This document shows positions 46,978-62,323 of a stretch of 64,000 bases of DNA, piece after piece. The stretch comes from Cytophaga hutchinsonii ATCC 33406. Its GTDB lineage: Bacteria > Bacteroidota > Bacteroidia > Cytophagales > Cytophagaceae. The stretch's first letter is position 1, and each line of letters opens with the position of its first letter. Below the pieces are notes generated by a model. The model made no database searches. It had not been told where the DNA came from and saw nothing but the letters and a program-made list of their open reading frames with translations. Position numbers and translations under genes: made by a program. Location of the stretch: positions 1,303,501 to 1,367,500 of the forward strand of contig NC_008255.1 of the NCBI RefSeq assembly GCF_000014145.1, read 5' to 3'.

Positions 46978-46984
46978 CGCAACC

Positions 46985-48041: not shown

Positions 48042-48046
48042 AAAAT

Positions 48047-48499
48047 TTATCCTAAATCATAATTATCTAAACTTTTCAGAAAATCATCAATATTATTTTC
48101 TGCAATATCCATTTCCTTACTATCAGCTAATATTACTTTCTTAAAAGAATTAGTAAAGAATACTGTTATAAATCTGCTATTATTAAAAGCTATATTATTT
48201 TCTGGATGTTTTGTTCCTACAATTAACAATTGATATTGATAAGTATTAACCGTAATATCTTTCATTTGTATCCTATATCTATGACACATTTTTTCATACA
48301 CTTCTTTAAAGTCATATTTCTCCATTTTTACAATAAATATACTTTCATTAATTCCATTACTACCAATTCCATATAAATATAGATTTCCAATATTACTTGC
48401 AGGTGCGGAATTAATAAAATTAAATTCTAAATTTTTATTATCAATTTTAATTCTGCCTGATGTGCCGAGTGGAATTATTTGATGTGGTATATATATCAT
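48047..48499 (-). CDS. Hypothetical protein, 150 aa (accessory island)
   Basis: I do not recognise this protein. It is soluble, without signal or membrane segments, Asn- and Ile-rich, with mixed alpha/beta character and an acidic C-terminus (ENNIDDFLKSLDNYDLG). It is the last gene of the minus-strand cluster 48.0-51.4 kb, 44 bases after the duplicated-domain protein gene. Base composition is much more A/T-rich than genes before 47 kb, as for the rest of the cluster. Confidence 0.6.
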   Translation of the reverse strand: MIYIPHQIIPLGTSGRIKIDNKNLEFNFINSAPASNIGNLYLYGIGSNGINESIFIVKMEKYDFKEVYEKMCHRYRIQMKDITVNTYQYQLLIVGTKHPENNIAFNNSRFITVFFTNSFKKVILADSKEMDIAENNIDDFLKSLDNYDLG

Positions 48500-48543
48500 A
48501 GTTTTATTTTTTTGTTGTGATTAATATAATCTATTCTAAATAT

Positions 48544-49032
48544 TTAATAAATGTTATCAAATCCTTTTTGAGCTAAGGATATACCATTTTGTGAAGCAAC
48601 AATGAATTCCTTCTTAATTAAATTGCTTATAGATTTATCAATTAAATCTATTTCTTTAGGATTCAAATCTTCTGTAAGACCATAATTTAGCCACCGATTA
48701 TCTATTATGTGTCCAACTCTTGAATTTGTATCTAAAAACCGATTCATGATAGATTTGCCAATCTTTTCAATAGCGTCTTTCTCATTTATAGGATAAATCG
48801 TATCATATCCTTTCTCGGTAAGAACTATACAAAATGCACCTGTTCTTTGCTCTGTTAAAATAAGACCCTCATCATACATTTCTTTAAGAGTATCATTAAA
48901 GGAATCCTGTTCTTTAGGATTTAACTTTGGGAAAATTGCATGTGAAATAACACCTTGGTCAATCACATGATTTGGTTTTGATTTTTGTTTTTTAAAACGC
49001 TCAAGAATTTCTGATTTAGCTTTATTTGCCAT
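48544..49032 (-). CDS. Protein with two tandem winged-helix-like repeats, 162 aa
   Basis: The protein is an internal duplication of about 78 residues. Repeat 1 (about 5-80) ends LTEKGYDTIYP and repeat 2 (about 88-162) ends LAQKGFDNIY. They align along KSEILERF / KSIMNRFL, HVIDQGVISHAIFPKLNPKE / HIIDNRWLNYGLTEDLNPKE, and LKEMYDEGLILTEQRTG / ISNLIKKEFIVASQNG. The order of helices plus a final beta-hairpin with L-T/A-x-KG resembles a winged helix, so it may bind nucleic acid or act as a protein adaptor; this is inference. It lies between the two-gene membrane group and the 150-aa protein in the same direction. Confidence 0.72.
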   Translation of the reverse strand: MANKAKSEILERFKKQKSKPNHVIDQGVISHAIFPKLNPKEQDSFNDTLKEMYDEGLILTEQRTGAFCIVLTEKGYDTIYPINEKDAIEKIGKSIMNRFLDTNSRVGHIIDNRWLNYGLTEDLNPKEIDLIDKSISNLIKKEFIVASQNGISLAQKGFDNIY

Positions 49033-49135
49033 AGTAGTTGTTGTTCAATGCAGTTGTTCCCCTGATAAGCCTATAAGACAAAATATTTCGTAAAAAAATT
49101 TCGTAAAGTATAATAAAAACTTAGGCCTTATTATA

Positions 49136-49765
49136 TTAAGGCGTAGAGATGATATTATATGTATTATTAACCATAGATACATAATTTACAACCATAAATC
49201 TTGCCCTATACCAAAACAAACAAGTCAATAAAAAATAAATGAGAGAATAGTTTAAAATGCATTGTGTTAAATAGTATATACTCCAACCAAATGTGATTAA
49301 GGTTAAACCTTTGAATAATTCATTCATTAAATTCCAATATTCAGAACTACTATACTTTCCCTCATATTGTAGTTCGCATACTTTTTTTCTAAATGAAATA
49401 TGATTATTTATTTGCGTGCTTTGAGAATTTAAAATTCCAACTTGTCTATAACCATTAACTACAAAATTCAAAAAAGATAAGGTTCTCTTGATTAATATAC
49501 TCTTGTAGCTTTTTTTCTTAAAATCCCATATATACATACCAATTTTAGTAATTATTAAATCAACTCCATGAACTATATGTCCTAATAAATAAAGCCCAGG
49601 AATTAATAGAAAAAGTATTGTTGCGGGATTGTCTTTTATACCTCTTTGTGATATTTGAAAAAAATGAAATAAAGAAGCTTTAAACTCAAATAATAGAGTT
49701 AATAAGAGAAAAATTCCTATTAATAAATAAGCAAAGAAATCACGGATTGTATATTTATCTGTCAT
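49136..49765 (-). CDS. Hypothetical four-helix membrane protein, 209 aa
   Basis: I do not recognise the family. Membrane helices are visible at about 9-28 (FFAYLLIGIFLLLTLLF), 48-66 (ILFLLIPGLYLLGHIVHG), 150-170 and 173-195. A soluble loop of about 75 residues separates helices 2 and 3. The opening IRDFFAYLLIG is similar to that of several small membrane proteins I associate with defence islands, but I cannot name one. It follows the 94-aa gene by 12 bases and is probably part of the same operon as the RexA/RexB-like pair. Confidence 0.65.
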   Translation of the reverse strand: MTDKYTIRDFFAYLLIGIFLLLTLLFEFKASLFHFFQISQRGIKDNPATILFLLIPGLYLLGHIVHGVDLIITKIGMYIWDFKKKSYKSILIKRTLSFLNFVVNGYRQVGILNSQSTQINNHISFRKKVCELQYEGKYSSSEYWNLMNELFKGLTLITFGWSIYYLTQCILNYSLIYFLLTCLFWYRARFMVVNYVSMVNNTYNIISTP

Positions 49766-49777
49766 GAAAAAATAAAA

Positions 49778-50062
49778 TTAATATTGAATACTTACTGAAA
49801 CTTCTTCTTCACTTAAATTTTCTATTTGTATAAAATTGTAATTGGGTTGTGAATATTTCTCACTTTTTTTGTTTTGTGGATGGGAATATTTTTCACCAAA
49901 ACCATTTGAAAAATCAACCTTTATAAATTCTTCTGTTTCTTTTGTTAGAACAAAATTCTTTTTTAATAAAACACGCATAATTGATATTTTATGCGGAGGT
50001 ATTGTTATAACTTGAAAATCATTATAATCATTAATTATCTCATCCATAGTATTAATTATCAC
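49778..50062 (-). CDS. Small hypothetical protein, 94 aa (accessory operon)
   Basis: I do not recognise this protein. It is soluble with alternating polar stretches (YSHPQNKKSEKYSQPNYNF) and an acidic C-terminus (ENLSEEEVSVSIQY). The start is GTG at 50062, which overlaps the stop of the upstream membrane protein gene by four bases (GTGA); an ATG at 50047 is an alternative. The overlap argues that it is translated with the RexB-like protein. Confidence 0.6.
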   Translation of the reverse strand: MIINTMDEIINDYNDFQVITIPPHKISIMRVLLKKNFVLTKETEEFIKVDFSNGFGEKYSHPQNKKSEKYSQPNYNFIQIENLSEEEVSVSIQY

Positions 50063-50499
50063 TTACGATTATTGAATTTTAATATTTCAAAAATAGCAAC
50101 ACCTGTATCCCTTAAAATATCAATTGAATTAATAAAAATACTACCAATAATTGTATTAAATGCGACATCATGATATTTAAAAGTTGTTTTAATAACAGAA
50201 CTATCTTTTAATATTAAAAATACAATTGCCAATGCTATTAAAATGATTTGCTCATATAAGGATTTCTTAACTTCTTTTATTGCACCATCAAAATCAATAA
50301 TATGTTTCTCGGCAATCTCTTGCATCTTAGATATAATAAGACTTATCGTTGCAGTATTAATTGCTAATAAAGTTATTAGAATAACAATAAGATTTCCATC
50401 TAAAAATTTAGCCCAAAAATCACTTTCTAATGCATTAGATAATATTGTCAGTATAAAACTGATTCCTAAATAAGTGAATATGTTTTTTATGTAATTCAA
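50059..50499 (-). CDS. Small polytopic membrane protein, RexB-like position and topology
   Basis: The 146-residue protein has four hydrophobic segments at about 6-23, 37-56, 84-97 and 112-129 (for example VILITLLAINTATISLII). Lambda RexB has 144 residues and four membrane helices and acts as an ion channel triggered by RexA. The sequence itself is too diverged for me to claim homology. The start is TTG, overlapping the stop of the upstream 287-aa gene by four bases (TTGA), so the two are translationally coupled as in rexA-rexB. It is followed by the 94-aa gene with the same kind of overlap. Confidence 0.65.
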   Translation of the reverse strand: MNYIKNIFTYLGISFILTILSNALESDFWAKFLDGNLIVILITLLAINTATISLIISKMQEIAEKHIIDFDGAIKEVKKSLYEQIILIALAIVFLILKDSSVIKTTFKYHDVAFNTIIGSIFINSIDILRDTGVAIFEILKFNNRK

Positions 50500-51359
50500 C
50501 TTCCGATTATTTTATTGTAAGCAGTAATAACAGCATTTGGATTCCCCGTAAGTTCAATTGAATCAATTGATACTTGAGTGGATGATTTTTTAGTTTTAAT
50601 CTTTCTTTTTATTCCTTTAACTTTTATTGAAATTTCGCCTCCACCTTCTGAGGCATAATCAACCATACCTTTTAAGTCTTCATTATTGCTATCTATATGC
50701 TCCAAAGAAGAATCTTCGGGAGCTTTCATTACTAACTTAGTTGTATGACTATTTGTTGTGTCTATAATGCTTTTAAATGATTCCCTTAATGAACCACTAA
50801 TATTACTCATATTCGGCTTTATCAGTTCAAATTCTAAGCCTTCAACACGACCTTCATACTGATTAGCTATTTGCCAAAACTCAAAAGTTTTGAATATTGG
50901 CTTTATGTATATTTGTAAATTGTATGCTCTTAATAAATCTCTGTATTTTGATTCCAATATATGCAACACAACATCAGAACTACTAAACGCTTGTATATTT
51001 CTACTAATAGCTATTTTTTGAATTTCCGGATTGTTATTTATAATAACTAATACATCAGGATAATCTTCAACTTGCTTTTGAGTAAAATTACTGTCTTGAA
51101 TTATTCTACCTTTTTTAGCAGCTAATCTAAAAACTATCAAATCATCTTCTGAATAAATGCTTTTATAAGGAAGAGTTTCATTTTGTTTGTTATAATAGCT
51201 ATTATTAGCTTTCAACACTGTAGAAAAATATAAGTTCTTATTCGCCTTTAAATCATCTACGTTTGTAAATTCGCTAAAAAGCACCATTTGGTTAGTAGAA
51301 GATATAGGAACTATTTGAAATCTAAAAACGTCAAAAATAATATCTTTGGTCTTATCCAT
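50496..51359 (-). CDS. RexA-like candidate sensor of an abortive-infection pair, 287 aa
   Basis: The soluble 287-residue protein has no signal or membrane segment. It shows a pattern similar to lambda RexA (279 residues): a first beta-rich part, then PDVLVIINNNPEIQKIAISRN followed by SSSDVVLHIL, then YIKPIFKTFEFWQIA and a C-terminal region with YASEGGGEISIKVKG; RexA has the corresponding run of strand, helix and IEPL segment. This is my reading by eye and no alignment score stands behind it. It heads the minus-strand operon, with a four-base overlap to a RexB-sized membrane protein. In lambda, RexA senses phage DNA-protein complexes and opens RexB. The role here is inferred from architecture. 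Confidence 0.6.
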   Translation of the reverse strand: MDKTKDIIFDVFRFQIVPISSTNQMVLFSEFTNVDDLKANKNLYFSTVLKANNSYYNKQNETLPYKSIYSEDDLIVFRLAAKKGRIIQDSNFTQKQVEDYPDVLVIINNNPEIQKIAISRNIQAFSSSDVVLHILESKYRDLLRAYNLQIYIKPIFKTFEFWQIANQYEGRVEGLEFELIKPNMSNISGSLRESFKSIIDTTNSHTTKLVMKAPEDSSLEHIDSNNEDLKGMVDYASEGGGEISIKVKGIKRKIKTKKSSTQVSIDSIELTGNPNAVITAYNKIIGS

Positions 51360-51511
51360 AAAAGTAGAGGTTTTTCAAAAATAGCAATTGTCTTATAGTT
51401 TTTAACTATTTTAAGACAAATTGTTTCAATTAACTAAAATAAATGCCTCTAAATATAATAATTTAAAGACACTTATTTTAAAATATAGTAAAAGCATAGA
51501 TTTTTTTATTA

Positions 51512-52024
51512 CTATGCTACTTTTCCATAATACCTATCCCTACACTTCCCGTAGTTATTTCTACCGTTAATTTTTAAGAAATACTGAAACTCTTTTTCCT
51601 TCTGCTTAAATATATCCAACGCCACTCTATTCTCCATCACAGCACTCTTAACAGATGATGCTTCTCTCTTTCCATTTTCAATAGACATAAACCAATTCAA
51701 ATACCCCTGTAGATATTTCGTAGAAACACCCTTCAACTCGCAATCTAAAAACCTTTGAAGCTTACCACAGTAATAATTCAACGTTTGATTATGAACTGTC
51801 TTATCAGTCTTAGAAACGTGATCTTTTGCCTTAAATACTTTATTCACTACTCTCTTTCTTTTATAATATTTACCATATGATACATGCTTATCACTAAATA
51901 CTACTAAGCCCTTCTTAACTCCTAAATAATTCTCTACATCCTGAGCACTTGACTTACCCATATGCGATGCAAACAATTCTAAATTCTTAGTTGTTCTTGA
52001 ATAAGACATGATACCCCCTCTCAT
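51512..52024 (-). pseudogene. C-terminal remnant of an IS1595-like (ISXO2-type) transposase
   Basis: The 170-codon frame matches the end of IS1595-group DDE transposases: FSDKHVSYGKYYKRKRVV (second catalytic Asp region), then VHNQTLNYYCGKLQRFLDCE and GVSTKYLQGYLNWFM, the His-Asn-x-N-x-x-x-x-L and final helix pattern of that group. The N-terminal zinc ribbon and first Asp are missing, so it is truncated and cannot act. Its 5' end stops where a fragment of another gene begins on the opposite strand (52025). No inverted repeats were found at its ends. Confidence 0.7.
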
Positions 52025-52174
52025 GTAGAATTATCTGGATTAAAATCGATCGAAATTAATGATGCTATACATGTAGCAACAGCGTTAATTCGTGAAAAAA
52101 ATAATTCTTTAATTGCTACGAAGGATTCTCGAATAAGATTAATCGATTTTTTAAAAGAAAGAATATTATTCTGA
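52025..52174 (+). pseudogene. 3' fragment of a PIN-domain (VapC-like) gene
   Basis: On the plus strand the frame reads VELSGLKSIEINDAIHVATA, then LIREKNNSLIATKDSRIRLI and ends LKERILF. The pattern D-A-x-H-x-A-T-A followed by a strand and T-x-D-x-R is the C-terminal half of PIN nucleases. The N-terminal half is absent; the frame runs into the transposase remnant. It is a scar of a toxin gene or of another PIN-domain protein. Confidence 0.7.
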
Positions 52175-52263
52175 TATTTCTTTTTTCTAGATTCCAAGAC
52201 GCATATTTTCCTACTTATTTGATTCTGTGAGAGAGCATAGATTAATTGAATTTCAATCTAGGC

Positions 52264-52437
52264 TTATCCATCAACTTGATAGTATTCTTCTGAAGTTCCA
52301 TTATCTCTTATCCTTTCATCTAAAAGCTTTTTAAACTTACCAGTATCTAACTTCTCACCATACGCAAGCAAATCATACACACACATATATTTAAAAGACA
52401 TTAGCAATCTGTTTAATTCGGAGAGTTTAATAGGCAT
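52264..52437 (-). CDS. Small hypothetical protein downstream of an XRE regulator
   Basis: I do not recognise this 57-residue protein. It looks helical and charged (KFKKLLDERIRDNGTSEEYY). The ATG at 52437 is 12 bases after the XRE gene stop and on the same strand, so the two are probably co-transcribed. A TTG at 52446 is an alternative start. It could be a toxin-like partner or an unrelated small protein. Confidence 0.45.
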   Translation of the reverse strand: MPIKLSELNRLLMSFKYMCVYDLLAYGEKLDTGKFKKLLDERIRDNGTSEEYYQVDG

Positions 52438-52449
52438 ACACCTCAAATA

Positions 52450-52758
52450 TTAATCAAAACCTTCACTAAAGAATTCTTCTGCTGTCATCCCTAAAGCATT
52501 TATTACGTTCATCAAACTAGAAAAACGGATATCTTCTCCTGATTCATAACGTGAAAATTGTGATCGGGAAATATTGTGCTCATAGGCGAAAAAGTCGGCA
52601 TTTGTATAACCCAACTTTTTACGTATTTGTCGGATTCTAGCTGCTAAAGCTTGAATATGTTTATCTGTTTTTTTGTTTACAACTTTTTTAGTCACCTTAG
52701 TTACCTTTTTGGCAGGATTGTTACCTAATTTTTTAGCTATTGCTTTTTTCTTTTCCAT
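52450..52758 (-). CDS. XRE-family transcriptional regulator with basic N-terminal tail
   Basis: The 102-residue protein has a lysine-rich, disordered-looking N-terminus (KKAIAKKLGNNPAKKVTKVT) and an HTH_3 domain at about 35-95: IRQIRKKLGYTNADFFAYEH, then SRSQFSRYESG and FSSLMNVINALGMTAEEFF. This type of short XRE protein is common in Bacteroidota mobile regions and may regulate its own operon. The ATG at 52758 is used; a TTG two codons upstream is less likely. It is divergent from the 52873 gene. Confidence 0.88.
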   Translation of the reverse strand: MEKKKAIAKKLGNNPAKKVTKVTKKVVNKKTDKHIQALAARIRQIRKKLGYTNADFFAYEHNISRSQFSRYESGEDIRFSSLMNVINALGMTAEEFFSEGFD

Positions 52759-52837
52759 AAACAAAAGAAAAAAGTATCCTTTGTATAACTAACCATTAAT
52801 TAATGGGAAACTATGTAAAGGATTTATAAATAATCAT

Positions 52838-52845
52838 TATATTTG
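52838..52845 (+). promoter_or_regulatory. Candidate -7 promoter element
   Basis: TATATTTG matches the Bacteroidota -7 consensus TAnnTTTG and lies 27 bases before the ATG of the 52873 gene. No clear -33 TTG is seen at the right distance, so it is a weak call. Confidence 0.4.
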
Positions 52846-52872
52846 CTTATTATCCATTTTGATCAGCTATTT

Positions 52873-53259
52873 ATGGAAACTACAATGAAATACAGCAAAG
52901 AAGAAATAATACTATTATTGCTCGCAGATATGAAGAGCAGAAGGCTTCTAATTGGGCTTGAAGCAACAGGTCTGGCAACAGATGATTTTAACTCAAATCT
53001 GGCAGATCTCATTTTTTCAAAAATTGACTTGCCAAAACAATATGAAGCACAGATGTATAACTGGTATGAAGATACAGTTTACACATTACTTGAAATAGAT
53101 ATGCATTATTTCAGAATACATCAGGAATTTTTAGCCCTTAAGTTTTATGATGCCATTCTTGAGAAAAAAAATCAATTAATTAATCAATTACCAGATACAT
53201 TAGGTACACATTTTTATTCAATCTTATCTTGGCTGAAACTTAATAAATATAATAATTGA
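52873..53259 (+). CDS. Hypothetical protein, 128 aa, paralogue of the next gene
   Basis: I do not recognise the family. The protein is soluble and largely helical. It shares a pattern with the protein of the next gene: ADMKSRRLLIGLEATGL / EDLCLQQLLIGMENIGL near the N-terminus and a central Trp-Tyr/Phe-containing helix (MYNWYEDTVYTLLE / FDEWFDKYNPIYEK). So the two are probably diverged duplicates. The ATG at 52873 gives METT; an ATG at 52885 is also possible. Confidence 0.6.
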   Translation: METTMKYSKEEIILLLLADMKSRRLLIGLEATGLATDDFNSNLADLIFSKIDLPKQYEAQMYNWYEDTVYTLLEIDMHYFRIHQEFLALKFYDAILEKKNQLINQLPDTLGTHFYSILSWLKLNKYNN

Positions 53260-53416
53260 TTGGTGCATTTCTTATCTTTTGTTAACCTCGAATAAATAAT
53301 GAATACCTAATTTTGAATCAGCACTTAAGTTGACTGAGAAGAATCGAATCCGCTGAAAGCTACCCAGGCTTTCACGGATTTATTTATCAGTAAATTGGTT
53401 ATATAAATTCGTTGGT

Positions 53417-53731
53417 ATGAATACAGATAAAACAATTTTAGTAGACTTGATCGTAGAAGATCTTTGTTTACAGCAGTTATTGATCGGCATGGAAAATATT
53501 GGCCTTAAATCCCAATATGAGCCATCCATTCAGCATTCCATTGCAGCATTAATGGGAATAAACACAGATGAAATGTTTGATGAATGGTTTGACAAATATA
53601 ATCCTATTTATGAAAAGGCCTTGCTTTTGAAATACCAGGATAAAAAATCGTTACGTTTATTGGCAGAAGCATTTATTATTTATCTGGATGGAGTAATCAT
53701 ACAAGAAGGATTATTGTTAAGCAATGAGTAA
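53417..53731 (+). CDS. Hypothetical protein, 104 aa, paralogue of the preceding gene
   Basis: This soluble helical protein resembles the product of the gene at 52873 over about 80 residues (LLIGMENIGL, FDEWFDKYNPIYEKALLLKYQ). It is shorter at the C-terminus. There are 157 bases between the two genes, including a short hairpin (GAAAGC...GCTTTC) at about 53355-53373 that may end the first. Its stop overlaps the LuxR-type gene on the other strand by 15 bases. Function unknown. Confidence 0.6.
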   Translation: MNTDKTILVDLIVEDLCLQQLLIGMENIGLKSQYEPSIQHSIAALMGINTDEMFDEWFDKYNPIYEKALLLKYQDKKSLRLLAEAFIIYLDGVIIQEGLLLSNE

Positions 53732-54673
53732 TGAATATTCCAGCTTTGCTAAAAGTTCAGACTTTTGGCTCACACCTGTTTTTGAATAAATGTTACTTAT
53801 ATGTTTCGCTACAGTTCTGTCAGATATAAATAATTCTTCTGCAATTTCTTTGTACGTATACGCTTTTGCAAGCAGGTGTATAATTTCCCTTTCACGGGCT
53901 GTTAAATTAAAATCAGCGCAGTTTTCCTGAAAACGTTTTTCATCAAATACGATTTCAATTTCAGTGTTTTTAGAGTCATCTTTTGATAATAAAAGCATCT
54001 GGTATTCTAATCTTGATTCAGAAATCTTTTTTCTAATAGCAATAATAATTAAAAGAAGGAATCCTGCATTTGCTATTGTATTTTCTACCAATTGACTGCC
54101 GTCAAAATAAACAATAATAGGTAATGCAGTCCAGAATATAACAGTAATATATATGCCTGCCATTTCAATTTTAGAAAATGTCTGTATTAAATAGCTATAT
54201 GCTTCCCGAATAGCTTTTGTAAAGCAAAAAATAAAACTCAGTGCATATATAAAAGGCACAATTACCACCAGTTTTCGGCTTAGGTTTATATCTCCGGTGA
54301 AATAATAAGGAACTACAAAACACATGAAAAATGGCATGAATAAAAAAACCACAGAGCCCCAATACGCATAAAACTTAAGAGATGCCAAATTAAAAGATTT
54401 ATAGATGTAATAGGGTAGGTAAAATGATAATAACAGGCCTCCGGAATATGCAATGGTATTTTGTACCTCTATAGATAAGGGTATGTTTTTATCGGGCAGG
54501 AAACCGCTTACACTATTATAATATACAGCAAATAAAAGCAACAGAAGAAAACGTAATCGTTGTATGTCGGTTGGCCGTGAAAAATAATAAATGATCTGAA
54601 ATAGAAAGAAAATAAATTCAACAACCAAAATAAAAAAAACGAAGATGTGAATTTCAGTTCCAGGCAAGAGCAT
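53717..54673 (-). CDS. Membrane protein with C-terminal LuxR-type DNA-binding domain
   Basis: The 318-residue protein has about seven membrane helices in its first 220 residues and a LuxR/GerE helix-turn-helix at about 255-312 (LTAREREIIHLLAKAYTYKEIAEELFISDRTVAKHISNIY in outline). Such membrane-bound LuxR regulators occur in Bacteroidota and would sense a membrane or external signal and act on DNA near the membrane. The start overlaps the acetyltransferase gene by 20 bases, so the two are co-expressed. The signal and target are unknown. Confidence 0.87.
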   Translation of the reverse strand: MLLPGTEIHIFVFFILVVEFIFFLFQIIYYFSRPTDIQRLRFLLLLLFAVYYNSVSGFLPDKNIPLSIEVQNTIAYSGGLLLSFYLPYYIYKSFNLASLKFYAYWGSVVFLFMPFFMCFVVPYYFTGDINLSRKLVVIVPFIYALSFIFCFTKAIREAYSYLIQTFSKIEMAGIYITVIFWTALPIIVYFDGSQLVENTIANAGFLLLIIIAIRKKISESRLEYQMLLLSKDDSKNTEIEIVFDEKRFQENCADFNLTAREREIIHLLAKAYTYKEIAEELFISDRTVAKHISNIYSKTGVSQKSELLAKLEYSLLIA

Positions 54674-55253
54674 GATGAATATTTATTTCTTTTTTAAGAA
54701 TGAATAACGAATATCCTAGGCGTAATTCCTGAATAATTTCAAATCCGTTTTTTTTATACCAAGGTAAATTTGACAGCGTGGATGTTTCTAAATATACAGG
54801 CAATCCTATTTTAGTATATAATTCAGTTATTTCGTTAAGCAATGTACTTCCATAGCCTTTACCTTGCTCTTTTGGAGCAACTCCTAAAAACCATAAGTGT
54901 GCATAGGAATTTTCAGCATGAGCATTTTTGATTGCTTCTTCTCTTTTGAGAATTTTTGACACCTTCTTTATGCCGCTGCATAATAATAAAAAGCTAATGT
55001 CAAGTTCAATACTCTTTAATGTTACTTTTTTTTTATGTGGAAGTAAAACTAAGCCACACGCTTTTTTATCATCAGATAAGTAAACATTACCAAAAAGCAT
55101 GCACATATCAAAGGCATATTCCATCAGCGCTTTGATTTGAGCAGAACGGTTTTTCCCTCCTCTGATAACATATTCTACACTCTTATTTGAATTAAAAGAT
55201 TGAGTAAGAATTTCTATAGCAGCTTTTCTATCTGAGTAAGTAGCTTCGATCAT
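54654..55253 (-). CDS. GNAT family N-acetyltransferase
   Basis: The 199-residue protein has the GNAT core in its second half: LWFLGVAPKEQGKGYGSTLL (motif A, Q-x-x-G-x-G) and LETSTLSNLPWYKKNGFEII (motif B). The N-terminal part is longer than usual and lacks clear features. It lies upstream of, and overlaps, the LuxR-type gene, suggesting shared regulation. The substrate is not predictable. Confidence 0.87.
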   Translation of the reverse strand: MIEATYSDRKAAIEILTQSFNSNKSVEYVIRGGKNRSAQIKALMEYAFDMCMLFGNVYLSDDKKACGLVLLPHKKKVTLKSIELDISFLLLCSGIKKVSKILKREEAIKNAHAENSYAHLWFLGVAPKEQGKGYGSTLLNEITELYTKIGLPVYLETSTLSNLPWYKKNGFEIIQELRLGYSLFILKKEINIHHALAWN

Positions 55254-55388
55254 TATTTAATAATAGCTTAATAATGTTTCAAAATTAAATAACGAAATCT
55301 CTTAACACAAGCAAAAAAGTATTGCTTTCCAAAATCTTAACATAGGTTATAAGTAATGTGTAATAAGTGTATATAATGCCAATAAATA

Positions 55389-55404
55389 GCATATACGTAT
55401 ATGC
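55389..55404. promoter_or_regulatory. 16-base perfect palindrome upstream of the initiator-like gene
   Basis: GCATATACGTATATGC is fully self-complementary and lies 139 bases before the ATG at 55543, in a 290-base A/T-rich intergenic region. It could be an operator. The sequence is mostly alternating A/T, so chance is possible. Confidence 0.4.
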
Positions 55405-55542
55405 ATATGTATGATAAATACGTAGAAAAATACATGAACAAATGTAAAGAATACGCTATAGTATGTATTTTATATATCGCAGTACCTTTCAATTTTTGTT
55501 CATCGCAACTCAGATTAATTTTTTACACAAATCACATTATAA

Positions 55543-56211
55543 ATGAACTACATTAAGCATCTAAATAAAGTTTTTGAAAGTATTTATTACGACGAAAGAT
55601 TAACGCCAAGCCATGTATCATTGTATATGGCATTATTTCGGCAATGGAACATACACCGGTTTAAAAATCCCTTATTGTATCAACGCTTGGAAATAATGAA
55701 AGGAGCGTGCATTGGTTCACTGACAACATATACAAAATGCCTCAAAGAACTGCATGAATGGAAATATATCAATTATAAGCCGAGCCGGAATTCGAACAAT
55801 TCATCCATTAGCATGTACAGTTTCTGTACATCAGTATGTACAGGTGCAAGTACAGACACATGTACAGAAACTGTACATGAAAGTGTACATGTATTATATA
55901 TAAACAATAATAAACAGAATAAACATAGGGGAAACGAAAATACATCCCCAACCCATAATGAGGTTAAAGAATTTTTTAATGAAAAAGAATGGCCGGAACA
56001 GGAAGCAGATACATTTTTTTTTCATTACCAGGCAACGGGTTGGTGTACCGCTAATCAAACAAAAATTCAGGATTGGAAAGCCGCTGCTCAAAAATGGATG
56101 TTAAAAAAAGTAAAATTTGACACCAGTGAAAGTGTAAATAAATCAACACATAAAAATATAAATGAAAAATTACACACCAATACAGACAGAAACTACTCAG
56201 AACCACTCTAA
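55543..56211 (+). CDS. DnaD-like replication initiator/primosome protein of a mobile element
   Basis: The 222-residue protein has an N-terminal winged-helix-like domain (about 1-90; SHVSLYMALFRQWNIHRF, TTYTKCLKELHEWKYINY). A low-complexity Cys/Thr/Val linker follows at about 91-125 (FCTSVCTGASTDTCTETV). The C-terminal segment (about 142-190) has NEVKEFFNEKEWPEQEADTF, then YQATGWCTANQTKIQDWKAA and a final W, which is the pattern of DnaD-like domains in phage replisome organisers. The DNA coding for the linker holds the TGTACA repeat array. It is followed by a DnaC-like ATPase gene, the usual initiator-loader order. I infer a replication role for a phage-like element. Confidence 0.72.
   Translation: MNYIKHLNKVFESIYYDERLTPSHVSLYMALFRQWNIHRFKNPLLYQRLEIMKGACIGSLTTYTKCLKELHEWKYINYKPSRNSNNSSISMYSFCTSVCTGASTDTCTETVHESVHVLYINNNKQNKHRGNENTSPTHNEVKEFFNEKEWPEQEADTFFFHYQATGWCTANQTKIQDWKAAAQKWMLKKVKFDTSESVNKSTHKNINEKLHTNTDRNYSEPL
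55812..55891. repeat. TGTACA repeat array inside the initiator-like gene, candidate origin
   Basis: Six TGTACA hexamers start at 55814, 55825, 55837, 55861, 55872 and 55884, spaced by 11 or 12 bases within each half. The block 55812-55831 is the exact reverse complement of 55860-55879, and the 21 bases at 55871-55891 recur exactly, inverted, at 61280-61300. The dense repetition goes beyond what the peptide requires. Confidence 0.9.
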
Positions 56212-56221
56212 GTCAGCAGGT

Positions 56222-56860
56222 ATGAATAATCAAACAGAAAAGGTACTTGATTTTGATGAATGCATTACATTTTTAAATAAAAAAGGTAAAGAACTTTTCG
56301 GATTAAAATTTTTTATTGATCCCGCAGATTATGAAGTGGTTTATAAAATATTGATCTACATTATAAAAGACGAAAGGAATGCGCAACGCCATAAGATTAG
56401 TTTGGATAAAGGCATCATGCTTTCTGGGCCTGTAGGATGTGGTAAAACAACACTCATGAATCTTATGAATCATATAATTCCTGTAGCAAACAGATACATT
56501 GTTCGTTCATGTAGATTAGTGAGTTATGATTTTATATCACAAGGGTATGATGCTATTCACAAATACAGCTATCAGTCATTTAAGAATAATAAAAAAGTAG
56601 TTACACCACAGGCTTGGTGTTTTGATGACTTAGGCACTGAAAGCAGTCTTAAATACTATGGTAATGAATGCAACGTAATGGCTGAAATTCTGCTCTCACG
56701 GTATGATTTGTTTATAGAAAAAGACATGGTTACTCATATTACTACAAATCTAGTAGCAGAAGAAATCGAATCGTTTTACGGAGTCCGCGTAAGAAGCCGC
56801 ATGCGTGAAATGTTTAATCTCATTTCGTTTGATAGAAATTCAAAAGATAAACGTGTATAA
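56222..56860 (+). CDS. DnaC/IstB-like P-loop ATPase (helicase-loader type)
   Basis: The 212-residue protein is an AAA+ ATPase with Walker A (GPVGCGKTTLMN), Walker B (AWCFDDLGTE) and a sensor region (THITTNLVAEEIESFYG, then RVRSRMREMF with a likely arginine finger). It resembles DnaC/IstB-type loaders found next to replication initiators in phages and transposons. I chose the ATG at 56222, ten bases after the preceding stop; an ATG at 56162 would overlap by 50 bases. There is no IstA-type transposase nearby, so a replication role is more likely than transposition. Confidence 0.85.
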   Translation: MNNQTEKVLDFDECITFLNKKGKELFGLKFFIDPADYEVVYKILIYIIKDERNAQRHKISLDKGIMLSGPVGCGKTTLMNLMNHIIPVANRYIVRSCRLVSYDFISQGYDAIHKYSYQSFKNNKKVVTPQAWCFDDLGTESSLKYYGNECNVMAEILLSRYDLFIEKDMVTHITTNLVAEEIESFYGVRVRSRMREMFNLISFDRNSKDKRV

Positions 56861-57057
56861 TTTAATTAGTATTAATTATTGTAATTTAGAATATAAAGAA
56901 GTTGACAATCGGATATTTATAGCTAGTATTTTTCCAATTATAAAGAAAATTTATATTTTTATAATTTTTTAAAATAATATTTGTCATATTGTAATGCGTA
57001 ATTATAGTTAAAATTTTTTAATAATATTTGTGCGAATAAAATAATATCCCTAAAAGC

Positions 57058-59001
57058 ATGGAAAAATCAGAAATAATTAAAAGTTTAATAACTGTTTCAG
57101 CACCTTTGATTTCTAGTATAACTGATTCATTTTTAAAGCCTAAAATTAAAGAACTATCGGATATATTCTCAATTAAGACAAAAAATTTCGAGCATTTAAT
57201 TGAAAATAAATTTAATAAATACCTAATAAATTCATATGAAAAGTATTCAATAATAAATACGATTGTATTTCATAATCAACAGAAGTTATTAAAGGAATTA
57301 TACATTCCATTAACAGTTGTAAATTCAGATAAGCAATCATTTGTAATTGATAATTACAATGAAAAATTATTGTCAAATTTTCAAAGAGTATTAATTACTG
57401 ACACAGCTGGCATGGGTAAATCCACAATAATGAAAAGAATTTTCCTTTCAATTATTGATGAAAATAAAGGCATTCCTATATTAATTGAATTAAGGAGGTT
57501 GTCAAAATCTAAGGACATAATAGATGAAATTATTGAACAGTTGTCAACCATTAACGAAGTAGTTGATAAAAGTTTTGTTCTTCATTTAATTCAGAAAGGA
57601 GATTTTATCTTTTTATTAGATGGATTTGACGAAATTCCTTTAGATAGTAGAAAAACTGTGACAAAGCAAATTCAAACATTTATTAATAAAGCAGGCAATA
57701 ATTTTTTTATCTTAACATCACGTCCTGAAACAGCGCTTTCATCATTCGGTGATTTTAAAGAATTTAAAATTAATTCTCTTACAAAATTGCAAGCATTTGA
57801 ATTATTAACAAAATATGACCACAATGGTACCTTGTCTAAACAATTAATCAAAAAATTAAAAGAACATCAATACGAAAATATTGAAGAGTTTCTGCACAAT
57901 CCTTTACTAGTTTCTTTATTATTTGCTGCATATGAACATAAACAAACTATACCTCTTAAAAAACACATATTTTATAGGCAAGTTTATGACGCTTTATTTG
58001 AATCCCATGATTTAACAAAAGGTGATTCTTTTATAAGGGGGAAGTTTTCGTTACTAGATATTGATGAGTTTCACAGAGTATTAAGACATATAGGTTATAA
58101 TTGTATAATTAAAGGTAAAATTGAATTTACAAAAGATGAAATTTTAAACTTAATAACAGAAGCCAAGGGGTTTACAAGTGGATTAATATTTAAAGAATCA
58201 GATTTTCTAAAAGATTTGATTAATACGGTACCACTTTTTACTATTGATGGTATTTATTACAGATGGTCTCATAAATCATTACAAGAATACTTTGCAGCAC
58301 AATTTATTTTTTTGGATTCAAAAGAAGCTCAAAAAGACATTTTAATTAAAATTTACAAACATTCAGATTCTGATAGATTTCTTAATCTATTGGATTTGTA
58401 TTATAGTATCGATTACAAATCTTTTAGTGAGGTTATAATATATAATTTATTAAACGATTTCTTTGTTTATTTGCAGGAATCGTATAAGTATATTAACAGT
58501 GAACATAAAAAAGAGAGGCAACTTATTACTTTTGCATATGATTATGTGTTTATTAAATTTTCGTTAGATAAACACAAAGATCTAAAAAATTTATGGGCTA
58601 ATGCCTCTGATGGAATTTCCAATAAAGATTGGGAACTATTAATTAATCCTGTTTCGAATGAAGAAAAAATAAATTTCATCAAAGTTCCAGTAAGTAAAAA
58701 ATTTACAGCTAAAATTTTAGGTTTTTTGTTAATGAAAAAAGAAAAATTTGTTAAAGTATATAAAGTAGTTAATGAAAGGAATATAATTATTGATATTGAG
58801 GATTCAATTCCTTATTTTTTAACAGATAATAAAAAGTTAATATTAAATTCAACAGATATATTTAAAAAAACTAATTCTTTAATTATTATATTTAATCATC
58901 AAGGTATACTTACTATTGATGAAGAACAAGGGCAAAAAGCTTTAAAAAAAATTAGGGAATCAATGACAAAAAACACAAAAGATAGATTACTTAATTTTTG
59001 A
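57058..59001 (+). CDS. NACHT-domain STAND NTPase (bacterial NLR-like, candidate antiphage protein)
   Basis: The 647-residue protein has a helical N-terminal region (1-105), a NACHT domain at about 108-290 with Walker A AGMGKST (117-123, Lys121), Walker B FLLDGFDE (185-192) and sensor FILTSRPET, and a winged-helix/helical part with the diagnostic YRWSHKSLQEYFAAQFI at about 400-416. The last 230 residues show no known repeats such as LRR, TPR or WD40; the C-terminus is a compact alpha/beta stretch. Bacterial NACHT proteins of similar design protect against phage. Here it is cargo between a replication pair and a cluster on the opposite strand. The gene is very A/T-rich. The ligand and effector activity are unknown. 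Confidence 0.86.
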   Translation: MEKSEIIKSLITVSAPLISSITDSFLKPKIKELSDIFSIKTKNFEHLIENKFNKYLINSYEKYSIINTIVFHNQQKLLKELYIPLTVVNSDKQSFVIDNYNEKLLSNFQRVLITDTAGMGKSTIMKRIFLSIIDENKGIPILIELRRLSKSKDIIDEIIEQLSTINEVVDKSFVLHLIQKGDFIFLLDGFDEIPLDSRKTVTKQIQTFINKAGNNFFILTSRPETALSSFGDFKEFKINSLTKLQAFELLTKYDHNGTLSKQLIKKLKEHQYENIEEFLHNPLLVSLLFAAYEHKQTIPLKKHIFYRQVYDALFESHDLTKGDSFIRGKFSLLDIDEFHRVLRHIGYNCIIKGKIEFTKDEILNLITEAKGFTSGLIFKESDFLKDLINTVPLFTIDGIYYRWSHKSLQEYFAAQFIFLDSKEAQKDILIKIYKHSDSDRFLNLLDLYYSIDYKSFSEVIIYNLLNDFFVYLQESYKYINSEHKKERQLITFAYDYVFIKFSLDKHKDLKNLWANASDGISNKDWELLINPVSNEEKINFIKVPVSKKFTAKILGFLLMKKEKFVKVYKVVNERNIIIDIEDSIPYFLTDNKKLILNSTDIFKKTNSLIIIFNHQGILTIDEEQGQKALKKIRESMTKNTKDRLLNF

Positions 59002-59044
59002 TTTATTATGAACGTATATTTCTATCACAAAATAGAAATATACT

Positions 59045-59075
59045 AGAAAAGGCCTCAGCAAAAGAAGCCTTTTCT
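59045..59075. terminator. Bidirectional terminator after the NACHT gene
   Basis: AGAAAAGGC (59045-59053) pairs with GCCTTTTCT (59067-59075) between the convergent NACHT gene and the small membrane-protein gene. T and A tracts on both sides suit termination in either direction. Confidence 0.75.
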
Positions 59076-59081
59076 AATTAA

Positions 59082-59273
59082 CTATTTTTTCTTTTTGATA
59101 ATTCTTACTAATCCTTTAAGGTTTAACGATACAATAAAACTTACCGTTGCGCCAATTGCTGCCAATAAACAGGTTTTGACCAAATCATCTGAATGTATAT
59201 TGGAAAGGACGCTCAAAAGCGTCCCTCCAACAGTGCAGAAGATTGTTCCGTTATTGTTCTGTATTTGGCTCAT
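59082..59273 (-). CDS. Small membrane protein, 63 aa (holin-like candidate)
   Basis: This small protein has two hydrophobic segments (about 8-27, GTIFCTVGGTLLSVLSNI, and 33-52, TCLLAAIGATVSFIVSLNL) and a basic C-terminal end (RIIKKKK). Two helices with a charged tail is the layout of many class II holins, and the genes upstream encode another small membrane protein and a DUF5675 protein. This resemblance is not proof of lysis function. The ATG at 59273 is chosen; a TTG at 59291 is less likely. It overlaps the upstream gene by 23 bases. Confidence 0.6.
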   Translation of the reverse strand: MSQIQNNNGTIFCTVGGTLLSVLSNIHSDDLVKTCLLAAIGATVSFIVSLNLKGLVRIIKKKK

Positions 59274-59484
59274 CTTGCTTTGTAGATTCAACCGCTGTTT
59301 GACTAACAGCCGTTAATACAGCACCTGCAACTATGACATAGCTAGCTATAGAAACAACAGCGATAGGAACAGCAATAGGAGATGCAATAATTGTAGTTCC
59401 TGCAGCAGCTAAACTTAAACCAATGGTTCGTAACACTTTGAAGAATTTTGGCGTTGGAGATTTTACTCGTTGTACTACATTCAT
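59251..59484 (-). CDS. Small membrane protein, 77 aa
   Basis: The 77-residue protein has a basic start (RVKSPTPKFFKVLRTIG) and two hydrophobic stretches (LSLAAAGTTIIASPIAV and VSIASYVIVAGAVLTAVS), ending in a polar tail (KQDEPNTEQ). Its start overlaps the DUF5675 stop by four bases (ATGA), implying translational coupling. I do not recognise the family. It may be a second component of a holin-type or anchoring module. Confidence 0.6.
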   Translation of the reverse strand: MNVVQRVKSPTPKFFKVLRTIGLSLAAAGTTIIASPIAVPIAVVSIASYVIVAGAVLTAVSQTAVESTKQDEPNTEQ

Positions 59485-59897
59485 AATAAAGTAGAATTTG
59501 AAGGTTTAATTGTTAGATAAATGGAGTTGCCTTTTTTAAACTCGGGGCCAACTAGATCCAATAGCTTTTTTAAAGCATGTTTAGAATCTAACCCAATTCC
59601 GGTTCGGATTATTTCAGTAACAGGCGCAATACATCCGCGTAATTCTTTTAGTGCATCATTTGCTGGATGTATAGTTATAAACCTTCTGTTCGTAACATTT
59701 TCTATCCCTAAATGCCAGTCAAATTTTTTACTAAAACATCTGTGCAGTTTATATCTGCCCTCTGGTATACATGAAATACTAGTTGAATTATTTAGCCAAG
59801 GCAACTCAATAGTTTGGCAAATAAGTTTTTCTTCATAAAACAGGTTGCCATCAGTTGGTAATCCTGTTTTATAGTTTCTTTCCAATAGTAGGTCCAT
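59481..59897 (-). CDS. DUF5675 family protein
   Basis: The 138-residue protein has the DUF5675 pattern: an opening LLLERNYKTGLPTDGNLFYE, then CQTIELPW, a short loop, IPEGRYKLHRCFSKKF and FITIHPANDALKELRGCIAP. Members are found in phage-derived and mobile regions of Bacteroidota. The conserved His in IHP and the Cys in RGCIAP suggest a peptidoglycan-active enzyme (L,D-transpeptidase-like chemistry), but no function is established. It overlaps the genes on both sides by one and four bases. Confidence 0.82.
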   Translation of the reverse strand: MDLLLERNYKTGLPTDGNLFYEEKLICQTIELPWLNNSTSISCIPEGRYKLHRCFSKKFDWHLGIENVTNRRFITIHPANDALKELRGCIAPVTEIIRTGIGLDSKHALKKLLDLVGPEFKKGNSIYLTIKPSNSTLL

Positions 59898-60652
59898 TAT
59901 TCAACATGAACAATCTCAAGGCAATTATAAGCCCCATTTTTCAGAGAGTATTGTACATTGTTGATTTCCTGATAAAATTCCAGTGCAAGTAAATGCATAA
60001 CGGTAGTGTCAGTCGTAATTATAGGCGCTTTAGTAGGCGATAATTGTAAAATCCCTCTGTCTGCAGTTAATTCTAGATTTACAGGTAAAGAGTATTGTAC
60101 ATCGGCTTTACCGGTAGCGAAATCAATGCTTAAAAACGCGCTTTTTAATGTTACATGGGTAGCGCCTTGGGGACCTTCAATTTCATTAAGAGGAGATAGG
60201 TCATCAATTGTAATTTCACCCGTTGCTGGATCTAGCACTAAAGGCTTAAATAGAATAGTTCCCAATAATGCATCAATATTGAAATTGAATTTTCTTAGAA
60301 ACGCTTTTCCCTTATCTGTTTTAATCCCCGTTGCGACATTCCGGCTGCCGCGTGCGCTTGTTTTATCTTCTTTAAGAATAAAGCTCATAACCTGAGTAAG
60401 TCTGGCTGTAACTTTGCTATCAGAAGCATTCTTCATAAAACTGCGGATTGCATCACGTAGCATTTTTCCGGATGTTCCTGCCATACCAAACTCCTGTGCG
60501 TTTTCACGTGTCCGTTGAAATTTGGGATCACTTTCAAATTTACTTTTGGTAGAGGGTAATTGTTCTTTAACGATAAGCCCGTCTTTGGTTCTGAGGAATG
60601 TCATCCCGCCGATTGTTCCATCAATTTTTAATAAGCCTTTTTGTCTAGCCAT
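59897..60652 (-). CDS. Conserved hypothetical protein of Bacteroidota mobile regions, 251 aa
   Basis: The protein begins ARQKGLLKIDGTIGGMTFLR, then has a helical basic part (SGKMLRDAIRSFMKN) and a beta-rich C-terminal half (PLVLDPATGEITIDDL, TLKSAFLSIDFATGK). The N-terminal pattern of a short Gly-x-x-Gly-x-(M/L)-x-F strand is like that of DUF6266-type proteins found beside lysis or secretion modules. I cannot assign a function. It heads the minus-strand group 59.1-60.7 kb and its stop shares a base with the DUF5675 start (TAATG). Confidence 0.7.
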   Translation of the reverse strand: MARQKGLLKIDGTIGGMTFLRTKDGLIVKEQLPSTKSKFESDPKFQRTRENAQEFGMAGTSGKMLRDAIRSFMKNASDSKVTARLTQVMSFILKEDKTSARGSRNVATGIKTDKGKAFLRKFNFNIDALLGTILFKPLVLDPATGEITIDDLSPLNEIEGPQGATHVTLKSAFLSIDFATGKADVQYSLPVNLELTADRGILQLSPTKAPIITTDTTVMHLLALEFYQEINNVQYSLKNGAYNCLEIVHVE

Positions 60653-60742
60653 GATAATTTTTTATGTGTGGATGTTGATTAATTAGATACTGCATTACAG
60701 GCATAATGAAGTAGCAATAGTTATCCGTGATTGCATAGATGC

Positions 60743-61243
60743 TTAGTTGCAGCCCATGCAATATTTTTGTTTGTTCGGGTAGTTATAATTTCTGAATAAC
60801 CACGGCGGACAAACCGAGTCTTTTCCGCAATGCCAGAGGCCTGCTTTATCTAGTATGGCATCCTGCATACATTGTTTTAACATTGCCTCATGAGAATAAG
60901 TAGAATAGTGCCAGGCATAACCCTTTCTGATAAGTAGGCTGTCCAGTCTCTTGCCATCAACATATGCATTAACAAGCACGCGTCCATACAAGTCTCTTGT
61001 GTGTGCGGTAATCAGGATTTTTTTGCCTGCTACTATTTTACTTAGCGCTTGGTACGATTCGTATCCGTAGGTTTGTGAAAGTTCCGGTGCATCAATAGAA
61101 GCAAGGCGGCACGTGTAGGATCGGTGTTTCCATACCGCTACAAATGTATCACCATCTTTTATGCGGGTAATTCGCGCAGGTTGTTGAGAATAGGCAGTAC
61201 TCATTAAGAGTAGCGTGGACAGAATGAAAATAATCTGTTTCAT
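60743..61243 (-). CDS. Secreted thermonuclease-like nuclease (SNase family)
   Basis: I start the gene at the ATG at 61243, which gives a signal peptide (QIIFILSTLLLMSTAYSQ) on a 166-residue protein; the longer frame to 61393 has no sensible leader. The SNase core shows ARITRIKDGDTFVAV, CRLASIDAPELSQ with the Asp of the active site, and DLYGRVLVNAYVDGKRLD; Arg and Glu of the nuclease site are recognisable in RLASIDAPE and YGRV. The C-terminal Cys-rich end (CGKDSVCPPW and YCMGCN) is typical of Bacteroidota members. It should cut DNA or RNA outside the cytoplasm. A TGTACA element lies 37 bases upstream. Confidence 0.88.
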   Translation of the reverse strand: MKQIIFILSTLLLMSTAYSQQPARITRIKDGDTFVAVWKHRSYTCRLASIDAPELSQTYGYESYQALSKIVAGKKILITAHTRDLYGRVLVNAYVDGKRLDSLLIRKGYAWHYSTYSHEAMLKQCMQDAILDKAGLWHCGKDSVCPPWLFRNYNYPNKQKYCMGCN

Positions 61244-61279
61244 TTTTTTTAGGTTGGTTATTGAATTAATAAATAATGA

Positions 61280-61300
61280 CATGTACACTTTCATGTACAG
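61280..61300. promoter_or_regulatory. TGTACA-N6-TGTACA element upstream of the nuclease gene
   Basis: Two TGTACA hexamers start at 61282 and 61294. The full 21 bases are the exact reverse complement of 55871-55891 inside the initiator-like gene. It lies 37 bases before the nuclease start and is a likely binding site for a protein of the element. Confidence 0.85.
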
Positions 61301-61516
61301 ATTCCCCCATAAGTCAATAAAGACAAGGTTTGTGGAGAATAGATTGGATAACATAAATGTTTTTTTCATTGCCTGTAATAATTTGTTATGCAATTTTACA
61401 GCGTTAAAAAATCAGAAGGAATGCAACTATGTCATACTGGTATTAAGAGGTAGTATATTGCATCAAAAGATCACAAATGGTATAAATTGTAACAAAGCGT
61501 AATAAATAGTACTGCT

Positions 61517-61717
61517 ATGAAAAAAATGCACCGCGCAATAATCTATGCAAAGGATATTCAGCTAATTACAGGAAAAGGGCTGAGGTCTGCTCGCTACATG
61601 ATGCAGAAAATTAAAATTTCATTAAACAAATCACCGGAAAGTCTGATCACCATTGATGAATTCTGTGTTTACGCAGGCATTGATAAGGAAGATATCATGC
61701 ATCTCATAATTGATTAA
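61517..61717 (+). CDS. Small conserved hypothetical protein, 66 aa
   Basis: The 66-residue protein (HRAIIYAKDIQLITGKGLRS, ARYMMQKIKISL, then ITIDEFCVYAGIDKEDI) looks like a small helix-turn-helix: the first part fits an excisionase-like or winged recognition region. Similar short proteins are frequent in Bacteroidota genomes near mobile regions. It is divergent from the nuclease and directly followed by the 11-base repeat array. A DNA-binding role is inferred only. Confidence 0.65.
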   Translation: MKKMHRAIIYAKDIQLITGKGLRSARYMMQKIKISLNKSPESLITIDEFCVYAGIDKEDIMHLIID

Positions 61718-61844
61718 AGTACAATTCATGTATCAAGTAAGTACGACTTAAGTATGAAGGGAGTACGCAGACAGTACGAAGGGAGTACGGCGACAGTATG
61801 AGAGGAGTATGGGGACAGTACGGAGACAGTATGAAGGGAGCATC
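61718..61844. repeat. Eleven-base-period iteron-like array (AGTAYG)
   Basis: AGTACG or AGTATG starts at 61740, 61751, 61762, 61773, 61784, 61795, 61806, 61817 and 61828, an exact 11-base period. Degenerate units in phase lie at 61718 (AGTACA), 61729 and 61839 (AGCATC). The spacer bases alternate between AAGGG-like and GGGAC-like. It starts just after the stop of the 66-aa gene. From about 61845 to 62189 I see no gene. Confidence 0.9.
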
Positions 61845-62189
61845 AATACTACACGGATAGTAAAAGGAAAGACTAAAGAAAAACCATAGTGCAAGAACTA
61901 AATATGTATGTCAGGAGCATAAAATAAGTTCACTAAGATAGGCCAGTTGAAAGTCAAAATAGAAATGTGGTCATCACTGAACCTGAAAATTATCTCGCTT
62001 ATTAATTACTTCGTGGCCATTTGGATAGTATTATGTAAGACCTGTAATAAATATTAATATGGGATTTTTTTATACGTATATTAACATTCGACATTTATCT
62101 TGGTTGTTTTATTGAAGTGTCGAGTTTGCTACACGTATTTGGTCGCTATGTATTAGCGTTTATATTTAGTAATGATTGCTCTTGTTTTA

Positions 62190-62212
62190 AAGGGCGTATT
62201 CAATACGCCCTT
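62190..62212. repeat. Perfect GGGCGTATT hairpin, related to the 46985 repeats
   Basis: AAGGGCGTATT and AATACGCCCTT are perfect 11-base arms around a single C. The GGGCG(A/T)ATT core and layout match the palindromes at 46985 and 47250. It lies between the repeat array and the penicillin-binding protein gene, downstream of that gene's stop, so it may also act as its terminator. Confidence 0.75.
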
Positions 62213-62323
62213 ACGGTAATGGGCGTAGTTGTTTGACAGGTATCGCAAGTACCAACCTGCGTTCACGTATGGGCGAATCGCATGCGCCTGATTTTATGCA
62301 GCAATCACATCCGCGTTCCACAA

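Follow-up and report, generated by a model that had tools for sequence, protein, structure and literature searches.

A cluster of short repeats in the middle of a protein-coding gene of Cytophaga hutchinsonii ATCC 33406 raises the question of what such repeats do inside a gene. They lie in a 64,000-nt stretch of contig NC_008255.1 that was analysed as a whole (referred to as the window in the rest of the text; all positions are those of the window). The original prediction read them as a replication origin embedded in its own initiator gene, as in phage lambda, and our analysis supports this reading with the corrections given below. The array and the AT-rich tract next to it most likely constitute a replication origin that an integrative element carries within its initiator gene, and relatives keep the layout in which the winged helix is followed by the iterons, the AT-rich tract, the C-terminal domain and the loader. 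The features at the core of this candidate origin are the following.

55543-56211, plus strand: initiator gene, 222 aa, coding for a winged helix (residues 3-91), a disordered linker (residues 98-130) and a C-terminal helical domain (residues 138-202)
55814-55889, no strand assigned: array of seven candidate iterons within the initiator gene, with cores at 55814, 55825, 55837, 55849 (AGTACA), 55861, 55872 and 55884
55812-55831 (left arm) and 55860-55879 (right arm), no strand assigned: perfect 20-bp inverted repeat, peculiar to the window copy
55890-55925, no strand assigned: AT-rich tract (86% AT, three TAAACA words), proposed unwinding element
56162-56860, plus strand: DnaC-like AAA+ helicase-loader gene, given as the listed open reading frame; the likely true start is the ATG at 56222

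Six TGTACA hexamers at 11-12-base spacing had been claimed, and all six were found (55814, 55825, 55837, 55861, 55872 and 55884) together with a seventh, degenerate site that had been missed, AGTACA at 55849, which occupies the 24-bp gap between the hexamers at 55837 and 55861. Successive sites are spaced by 11, 12, 12, 12, 11 and 12 bp and share an 8-bp consensus, ATGTACAG whichever way it is read; neighbouring sites are separated by 3-4 bp, and all three reading frames are represented among the copies. TGTACA occurs 41 times in the window compared to 18.1 expected from shuffles, and six of these occurrences fall inside 76 bp. The general repeat score of the initiator gene was equalled by none of 200 synonymous-codon shuffles. 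The count of TGTACA alone gave a weaker test (6 compared to a mean of 2.54, with 6 reached in 61 of 10,000 synonymous shuffles), because TGT-ACA is also a Cys-Thr codon pair. The perfect inverted repeat of 20 bases that had been reported was recovered with the arms listed above. No DnaA box of the form TTATnCACA was found in 55001-57000, and scans of the whole window for Rfam families (gathering threshold) and for tRNAs were empty.

An AlphaFold2 model of the initiator, computed with 46 sequences, contains a confident winged-helix domain ahead of the linker, as had been expected (residues 3-91, block-mean pLDDT 87-98), then a linker with pLDDT below 50 (residues 98-130), then a helical C-terminal domain. 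The array does lie in the part of the gene that codes for this linker. The top matches of the winged-helix model among solved structures were 4pql ('N-Terminal domain of DNA binding protein', Z 9.4) and 4pt7 ('Structure of initiator', Z 9.1); 5kbj ('Structure of Rep-DNA complex') scored Z 8.3, and TFIIE, ORC and LexA scored similarly, at about 8-8.5. We take 4pql, 4pt7 and 5kbj to be structures of staphylococcal RepA proteins, members of the RepA_N family. In the viral fold library, phage 'replication initiator' and 'replisome organizer' models were among the best matches, and two matches were named lambda O-like (E 0.03-0.04). By sequence, neither the window protein nor any of the 46 family members matched the lambda O family of Pfam, and sequence membership of that family was rejected on this ground; the RepA_N domain of Pfam was likewise absent from the window protein and the 46 members, and a search of PDB sequences with the family profile returned nothing significant. 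The C-terminal domain had been called DnaD-like. The model shows it as helical; the DnaD label is weakly supported: three DnaD-like PHROG families were matched by 2, 1 and 1 of the 46 members, and the domain model had no match at Z ≥5 among 34 chains of solved structures, which does not count against a DnaD or a RepA_N fold.

Relatives of the initiator were found in 50 of the 395 Bacteroidota genomes sampled. The genome collection yielded at least 581 stretches with a relative, N-terminal-only relatives possibly included, and the best 80 were kept. An alignment-based scan of viral contigs matched 124 stretches, of which 80 were kept, whereas a scan of the same contigs with the initiator as a single protein found nothing. 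Nineteen of the first 30 loci carry a full-length open reading frame, 10 only the N-terminal part and one a shortened open reading frame.

We gathered 116 genes (the window gene, loci L070-L153 and further initiators), which gave 58 linkers once near duplicates were removed, and counted identical 6-mers with at least two G/C by their distance in a 40-residue stretch at each linker, using as the null synonymous codons redrawn within each gene. Pairs at a distance of 11 were found 97 times compared to 7.5 expected (95 compared to 7.8 when the window was left out), at 12, 66 times compared to 26.9, at 22, 25 times compared to 3.5 and at 23, 27 times compared to 3.8. Distances of 34, 35, 45, 47 and 59 also passed z 4, and no further distance in the range 6-60 did so. 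When the count was repeated on 40 residues each of the winged-helix domain and the C-terminal domain, pairs at a distance of 11 numbered 1 and 6 (0.8 and 5.1 expected, respectively) and no distance reached z 4. Of the nine peak distances, only 12 and 45 are divisible by 3; the other seven are not what peptide repeats alone would produce. The 58 linkers share ancestry and are therefore not independent events; the pooled figure measures conservation, not 58 origins.

The iteron cores vary by lineage (GGTACA, GGGACA, GAACAAG, GATAA, TGTACA) and the pitch recurs. Words enriched in the linkers over the synonymous null include GGGACA (z 8.8), GACAAG (z 7.2), TAAACA (z 8.9) and ATAAAC (z 9.6). Single genes are uneven: 22 of 35 scored at or below 10 of 200 shuffles and 13 did not, one of the 22 (L051) having its top window outside the linker, and in a single-motif test 17 of 58 genes scored at or below 3 of 60 shuffles. 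Among phage relatives, three of the four tested have in-gene repeats at 0 of 200 shuffles, and the repeat signal fails in the phage gene tooticki gp036 (69 of 200 shuffles). A comparison of homologues had been proposed as a check, the expectation being that the DNA repeat is kept while the linker peptide varies; the pooled data from the 58 linkers bear this out. At the family level, selection in the linker-coding stretch acts on DNA, not on peptide.

In the family, an AT-rich tract with TAAACA usually comes after the iterons. The AT-richest 36 nt fall in the linker in 41 of the 58 genes (14.9 expected), and AT words were counted 108 times compared to 52.6. AT words and iteron words occur together in 44 genes, and in 39 of these the AT words lie downstream. 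The longest G-free run falls in the linker in 32 of the 58 genes, and elsewhere in the window gene. By its composition and position, the AT-rich tract that adjoins the iterons is a putative unwinding element. The iterons and the protein may also have changed together, as the GATAA iteron type occurs in none of 42 genes with His at a recognition-helix residue compared to 5 of 11 others; this co-variation is suggestive but, with 3 independent pairs, not significant once the tree is used.

A DnaC-like loader gene had been placed directly after the initiator, and the protein indeed matches DnaC-like phage loaders (PHROG 50, E 9.6e-17; PHROG 3277, E 7.8e-12). The ATG at 56222 is its likelier start because homology in most relatives begins near residue 17-30. 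Among the best 80 named relatives, a loader homologue follows the initiator in all 80 (median 18 bp, maximum 1.1 kb), an excisionase-like HTH gene precedes it in 79 and RteC in 75. In a wider set of 36 loci, a loader was found in 30, a xis-like gene in 27, RteC in 26 and an integrase (tyrosine recombinase) in 10, and no loader was recognised beside the initiator in the remaining 6 (L058, L061, L063, L066, L067 and L068), which are mostly distant ones. Pfam names the neighbouring families as RteC (PF09357, E 1.2e-42 in L002), HTH_17 for the excisionase-like genes and, in some loci, TraG. Such RteC- and excisionase-bearing integrative elements of Bacteroidota, which in the relatives also have a tyrosine recombinase as a neighbour, are presumably CTnDOT-like. 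Bacteroidetes are among the phyla listed as having dciA, and dna[CI] genes have been described as phage-derived (PMC5109545), which is consistent with an element that brings its own loader.

The initiator and loader genes belong to a larger island of low G+C content, with the following features.

48000-61900, no strand assigned: low-GC island, 0.26-0.31 G+C over 48-60 kb compared to 0.39 for the window; borders approximate
57058-59001, plus strand: NACHT/SNaCT5 NTPase gene (SNaCT5 is the C-terminal domain), element cargo next to the replication genes
59251-59484, minus strand: gene for a small hydrophobic protein, with a homologue in collinear position both in locus L056 and in the Marivirga plasmid
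59481-59897, minus strand: DUF5675 gene, likewise with a collinear homologue in L056 and one in the Marivirga plasmid
59897-60652, minus strand: 'MARQKG' protein gene, likewise with a collinear homologue in L056 and one, which is split, in the Marivirga plasmid
60743-61243, minus strand: SNase (staphylococcal-nuclease-like) gene, start inferred, with a homologue in L056
61279-61304, minus strand: further pair of iterons that, spacer included, repeats the array sequence at 25 of 26 bases; it separates the genes for SNase and the small HTH protein
61517-61717, plus strand: gene for a small HTH-like protein, 66 aa; L056 has a homologue, and so does the Marivirga plasmid, near the integrase

The NACHT protein had no match in PADLOC. 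Locus L056 repeats the order of the island (XRE, initiator, loader, two small TM proteins, DUF5675, 'MARQKG', SNase and small HTH) and has a xis-like gene in addition. The plasmid p1 of Marivirga sp. BKB1-2, a circular record of 25,320 bp and the sole match among 72,556 plasmid records, shares with the window island the order initiator, loader, one TM protein, DUF5675, 'MARQKG' and small HTH, and the order runs on through a tyrosine recombinase and an HTH_17 gene to the initiator and loader again. In the p1 initiator gene, the iterons are ACAA words with gaps of 12, 11, 11, 6, 5, 11 and 23 (4 of 500 shuffles). No known Rep family and no relaxase was found among the 30 Pfam-scanned open reading frames of p1 (initiator included; 26 of the 27 that have at least 100 aa). 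A collinear element is thus recorded as a circle, and the initiator homologue is the only initiator recognised in it. Several p1 genes, the loader included, appear shortened or split, and since the record carries an integrase, p1 could be an excised circle.

The window copy differs from its relatives in what surrounds it. Its island has the initiator and the loader, and no member of the xis-like, RteC or integrase families was recognised beside them. No PF00589 integrase match lies within 150 kb of the copy, which is at 1.36 Mb in the genome; such matches occur at 1.51 (a fragment), 1.70, 3.09, 3.83 and 3.88 Mb, the fragment being about 155 kb away and the nearest full match about 340 kb away. 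Ten further open reading frames of the island contained no integrase and no relaxase by Pfam. The tyrosine integrase and the excisionase-like gene that together mark an intact mobile integrative element are both missing at the window locus, so that this copy may be stranded and may not replicate alone. Their absence argues for lost mobility, and the intact iterons and open reading frames of the window copy argue for recent or current function. Overall, the carrier resembles an integrative element or island more than it does a clear prophage.

Three systems in which an origin lies within an initiator gene offer points of comparison. The lambda origin is placed between two protein domains of O; its iterons are longer than the 8-bp sites of the window, and lambda P is not known to be a DnaC-like AAA+ protein, unlike the window loader. 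Iterons and an adjacent AT-rich tract lie within the O gene with the loader gene P in the same region, an arrangement like that of the window, and the iterons number four in lambda and six in Stx phages (PMC7466680), compared to seven short 8-bp sites at 11-12 bp here. For SPP1, gp38 has been described as binding direct repeats inside its own gene (oriL), with an adjoining AT-rich DUE and a requirement for the helicase loader gp39, and a second origin of similar organisation (oriR) about 13 kb from oriL (PMC6316719). Likened to gp38 by description, the window protein comes with in-gene repeats, an AT-rich tract and a loader as well, and has a second iteron pair 5.4 kb away; however, this second site consists of just two iterons, and no counterpart was found next to SNase in L056. 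In pSK41, the winged-helix N-terminus of Rep binds four Rep boxes central in rep, the protein part encoded by the origin is dispensable and the C-terminal domain contacts the host DnaG (PMC5703833). Rep resembles the window protein in its winged-helix N-terminus (predicted for the window protein) and mid-gene repeats but is longer, 319 aa compared to 222 aa, and, unlike RepA_N initiators, the window family has no RepA_N match in Pfam and, in its best 80 relatives, a loader downstream. By analogy with these systems, our best reading is that the candidate origin would work like lambda ori, SPP1 oriL and the pSK41 origin, in a family with no sequence match to lambda O or RepA_N.

The second iteron site, about 5.4 kb from the array, stands out in the window, where the next best match has 8 mismatches. 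The whole genome has six places at which two TGTACA words are set 12 bp apart, and three of these are inside the low-GC island. No such site was found near the SNase gene of the collinear locus L056, and no clear match outside the initiator gene was seen in other loci, many of which extend only about 3 kb on each side; weak 18-mer matches to the iterons lie outside the gene in five other loci. The site at 61279-61304 resembles the distant SPP1 origin, yet it would also fit an operator near the SNase gene.

This site bears on an alternative that we consider unlikely, in which the repeats serve as operators. The winged-helix protein would then act chiefly as a transcription regulator, binding its own gene and, at 61279-61304, the DNA upstream of SNase, and the array would repress or tune expression instead of being an origin. 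Besides the near-identical second pair and spacer, this view draws on the existence of N-terminal-only open reading frames (10 of 30 loci, 54-105 aa) and on the annotation of one phage homologue as 'transcriptional regulator'. However, an array in the middle of a gene, followed by an AT-rich tract and, in the best 80 relatives, by a loader gene would be unusual for an operator, and the second site did not recur near the SNase gene of L056, nor did the other loci searched, many of which extend only about 3 kb on each side, give a clear match. Initiators commonly autoregulate, so that operator and origin roles are compatible. The array could also be a recombination, excision or transfer site (an att core or oriT) bound by an excisionase-like or other element protein, as the gene adjoins excisionase-like and RteC genes in relatives and an integrase or TraG gene in some loci. 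This appears very improbable, given that the repeats are found within the initiator gene of phage relatives too, and are present in the window genome with no xis-like family member beside the gene.

Two further explanations place the function in RNA, single-stranded DNA or protein. A hairpin formed by the 20-bp inverted repeat might be the working feature, acting as an attenuator, a terminator, a primosome site or a single-strand origin, and the window stretch does fold far better than shuffles (z -7.1 as DNA, -7.8 as RNA). Yet only 6 of the 58 linkers, the window among them, have an RNA fold below z -2, and in the other 57 linkers inverted 6-mer pairs stay at the null level (49 compared to 45.8) whereas direct pairs number 441 compared to 146.8, which leaves this explanation with very little credibility. 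The inverted repeat was on the same figures rejected as a conserved element. The least probable explanation of all is that a low-complexity linker peptide yields DNA repeats incidentally. The linkers are rich in Ser, Thr and Asn, the 12-bp unit of relatives can encode Gly-Thr-Ser-Ser repeats, and in the window TGT-ACA is read as Cys-Thr three times, with a TGTACA count that 61 of 10,000 synonymous shuffles reach; however, none of the spacings 11, 22, 23, 34, 35, 47 and 59 is divisible by 3, the window copies lie in three frames and the pooled signal exceeds the synonymous-codon null.

Under the preferred reading of an in-gene origin, the winged-helix domain would bind one 8-bp iteron per helical turn, and several initiator molecules would align on one face of the DNA. 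Aligned in this way, they could strain and melt the adjoining AT-rich tract, and the C-terminal domain together with the DnaC-like product would then bring the host replicative helicase to the opened strand. A broader and much more tentative proposal, which we regard as possible but doubtful, is that widespread integrative elements and phages of Bacteroidota replicate as autonomous circles from such an initiator-embedded origin with minimal 8-bp iterons, one per turn, initiator and iterons drifting together, and that the window copy, with its SPP1-like second site, may fire from the chromosome as an immobilised NACHT-carrying island. No in-gene origin in Bacteroidota is indicated in the literature titles and abstract openings searched. 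One study reportedly describes a conjugative transposon carrying an autonomously amplified plasmid (PMC10865816). Five annotated records label the initiator match as a hypothetical protein or transcriptional regulator. If the in-gene origin reading is right, full-length relatives come with an origin mapped to about 120 bp, the replication of Bacteroidota integrative elements becomes directly testable, with minimal replicons and vectors for the phylum, and another winged-helix initiator has its origin in linker-coding DNA. The linker-coding stretch, serving two codes, is a clean case of DNA-level selection within a gene.

Several other repeats lie in and around the island. At 61718-61840, directly behind the 66-aa HTH-like gene, are ten AGTAC/AGTAT words, nine of which follow one another in consecutive 11-bp steps (61740-61828); this 11-bp AGTAY array is absent behind the homologous small HTH gene in Marivirga p1 and in L056. 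Tandem 23-bp repeats (46971-47257) adjoin the island on its left, and both of its flanks carry GGCGAATGCGATTCGCC-like palindromes (47150-47270 and 62190-62291). Inside the island, an open reading frame at 51512-52024 matches an ISXO2-like (IS1595) transposase domain below the threshold.

Among the relatives, ten loci (L021, L022, L027 and L029-L035) carry homologues that consist of the winged-helix part alone (54-105 aa as called). Some genomes have several, and some of these loci have stops in the matched stretch. The short homologues are possible regulators or antagonists that could occupy the iterons, and some may be truncated genes. In Polaribacter phage Freya_1, gp55 (L242, 2989-3879) is annotated as a 'transcriptional regulator', and a 'DNA replication protein' comes next; the DNA that encodes the gp55 linker is strongly repetitive (0 of 200 shuffles) and may mark the phage origin. 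In Bacteroides phage BS-TP3, the hypothetical gene gp42 (L241, 2560-3324), near a helicase gene, contains TTAAGTAA repeats about 12 bp apart (0 of 200 shuffles).
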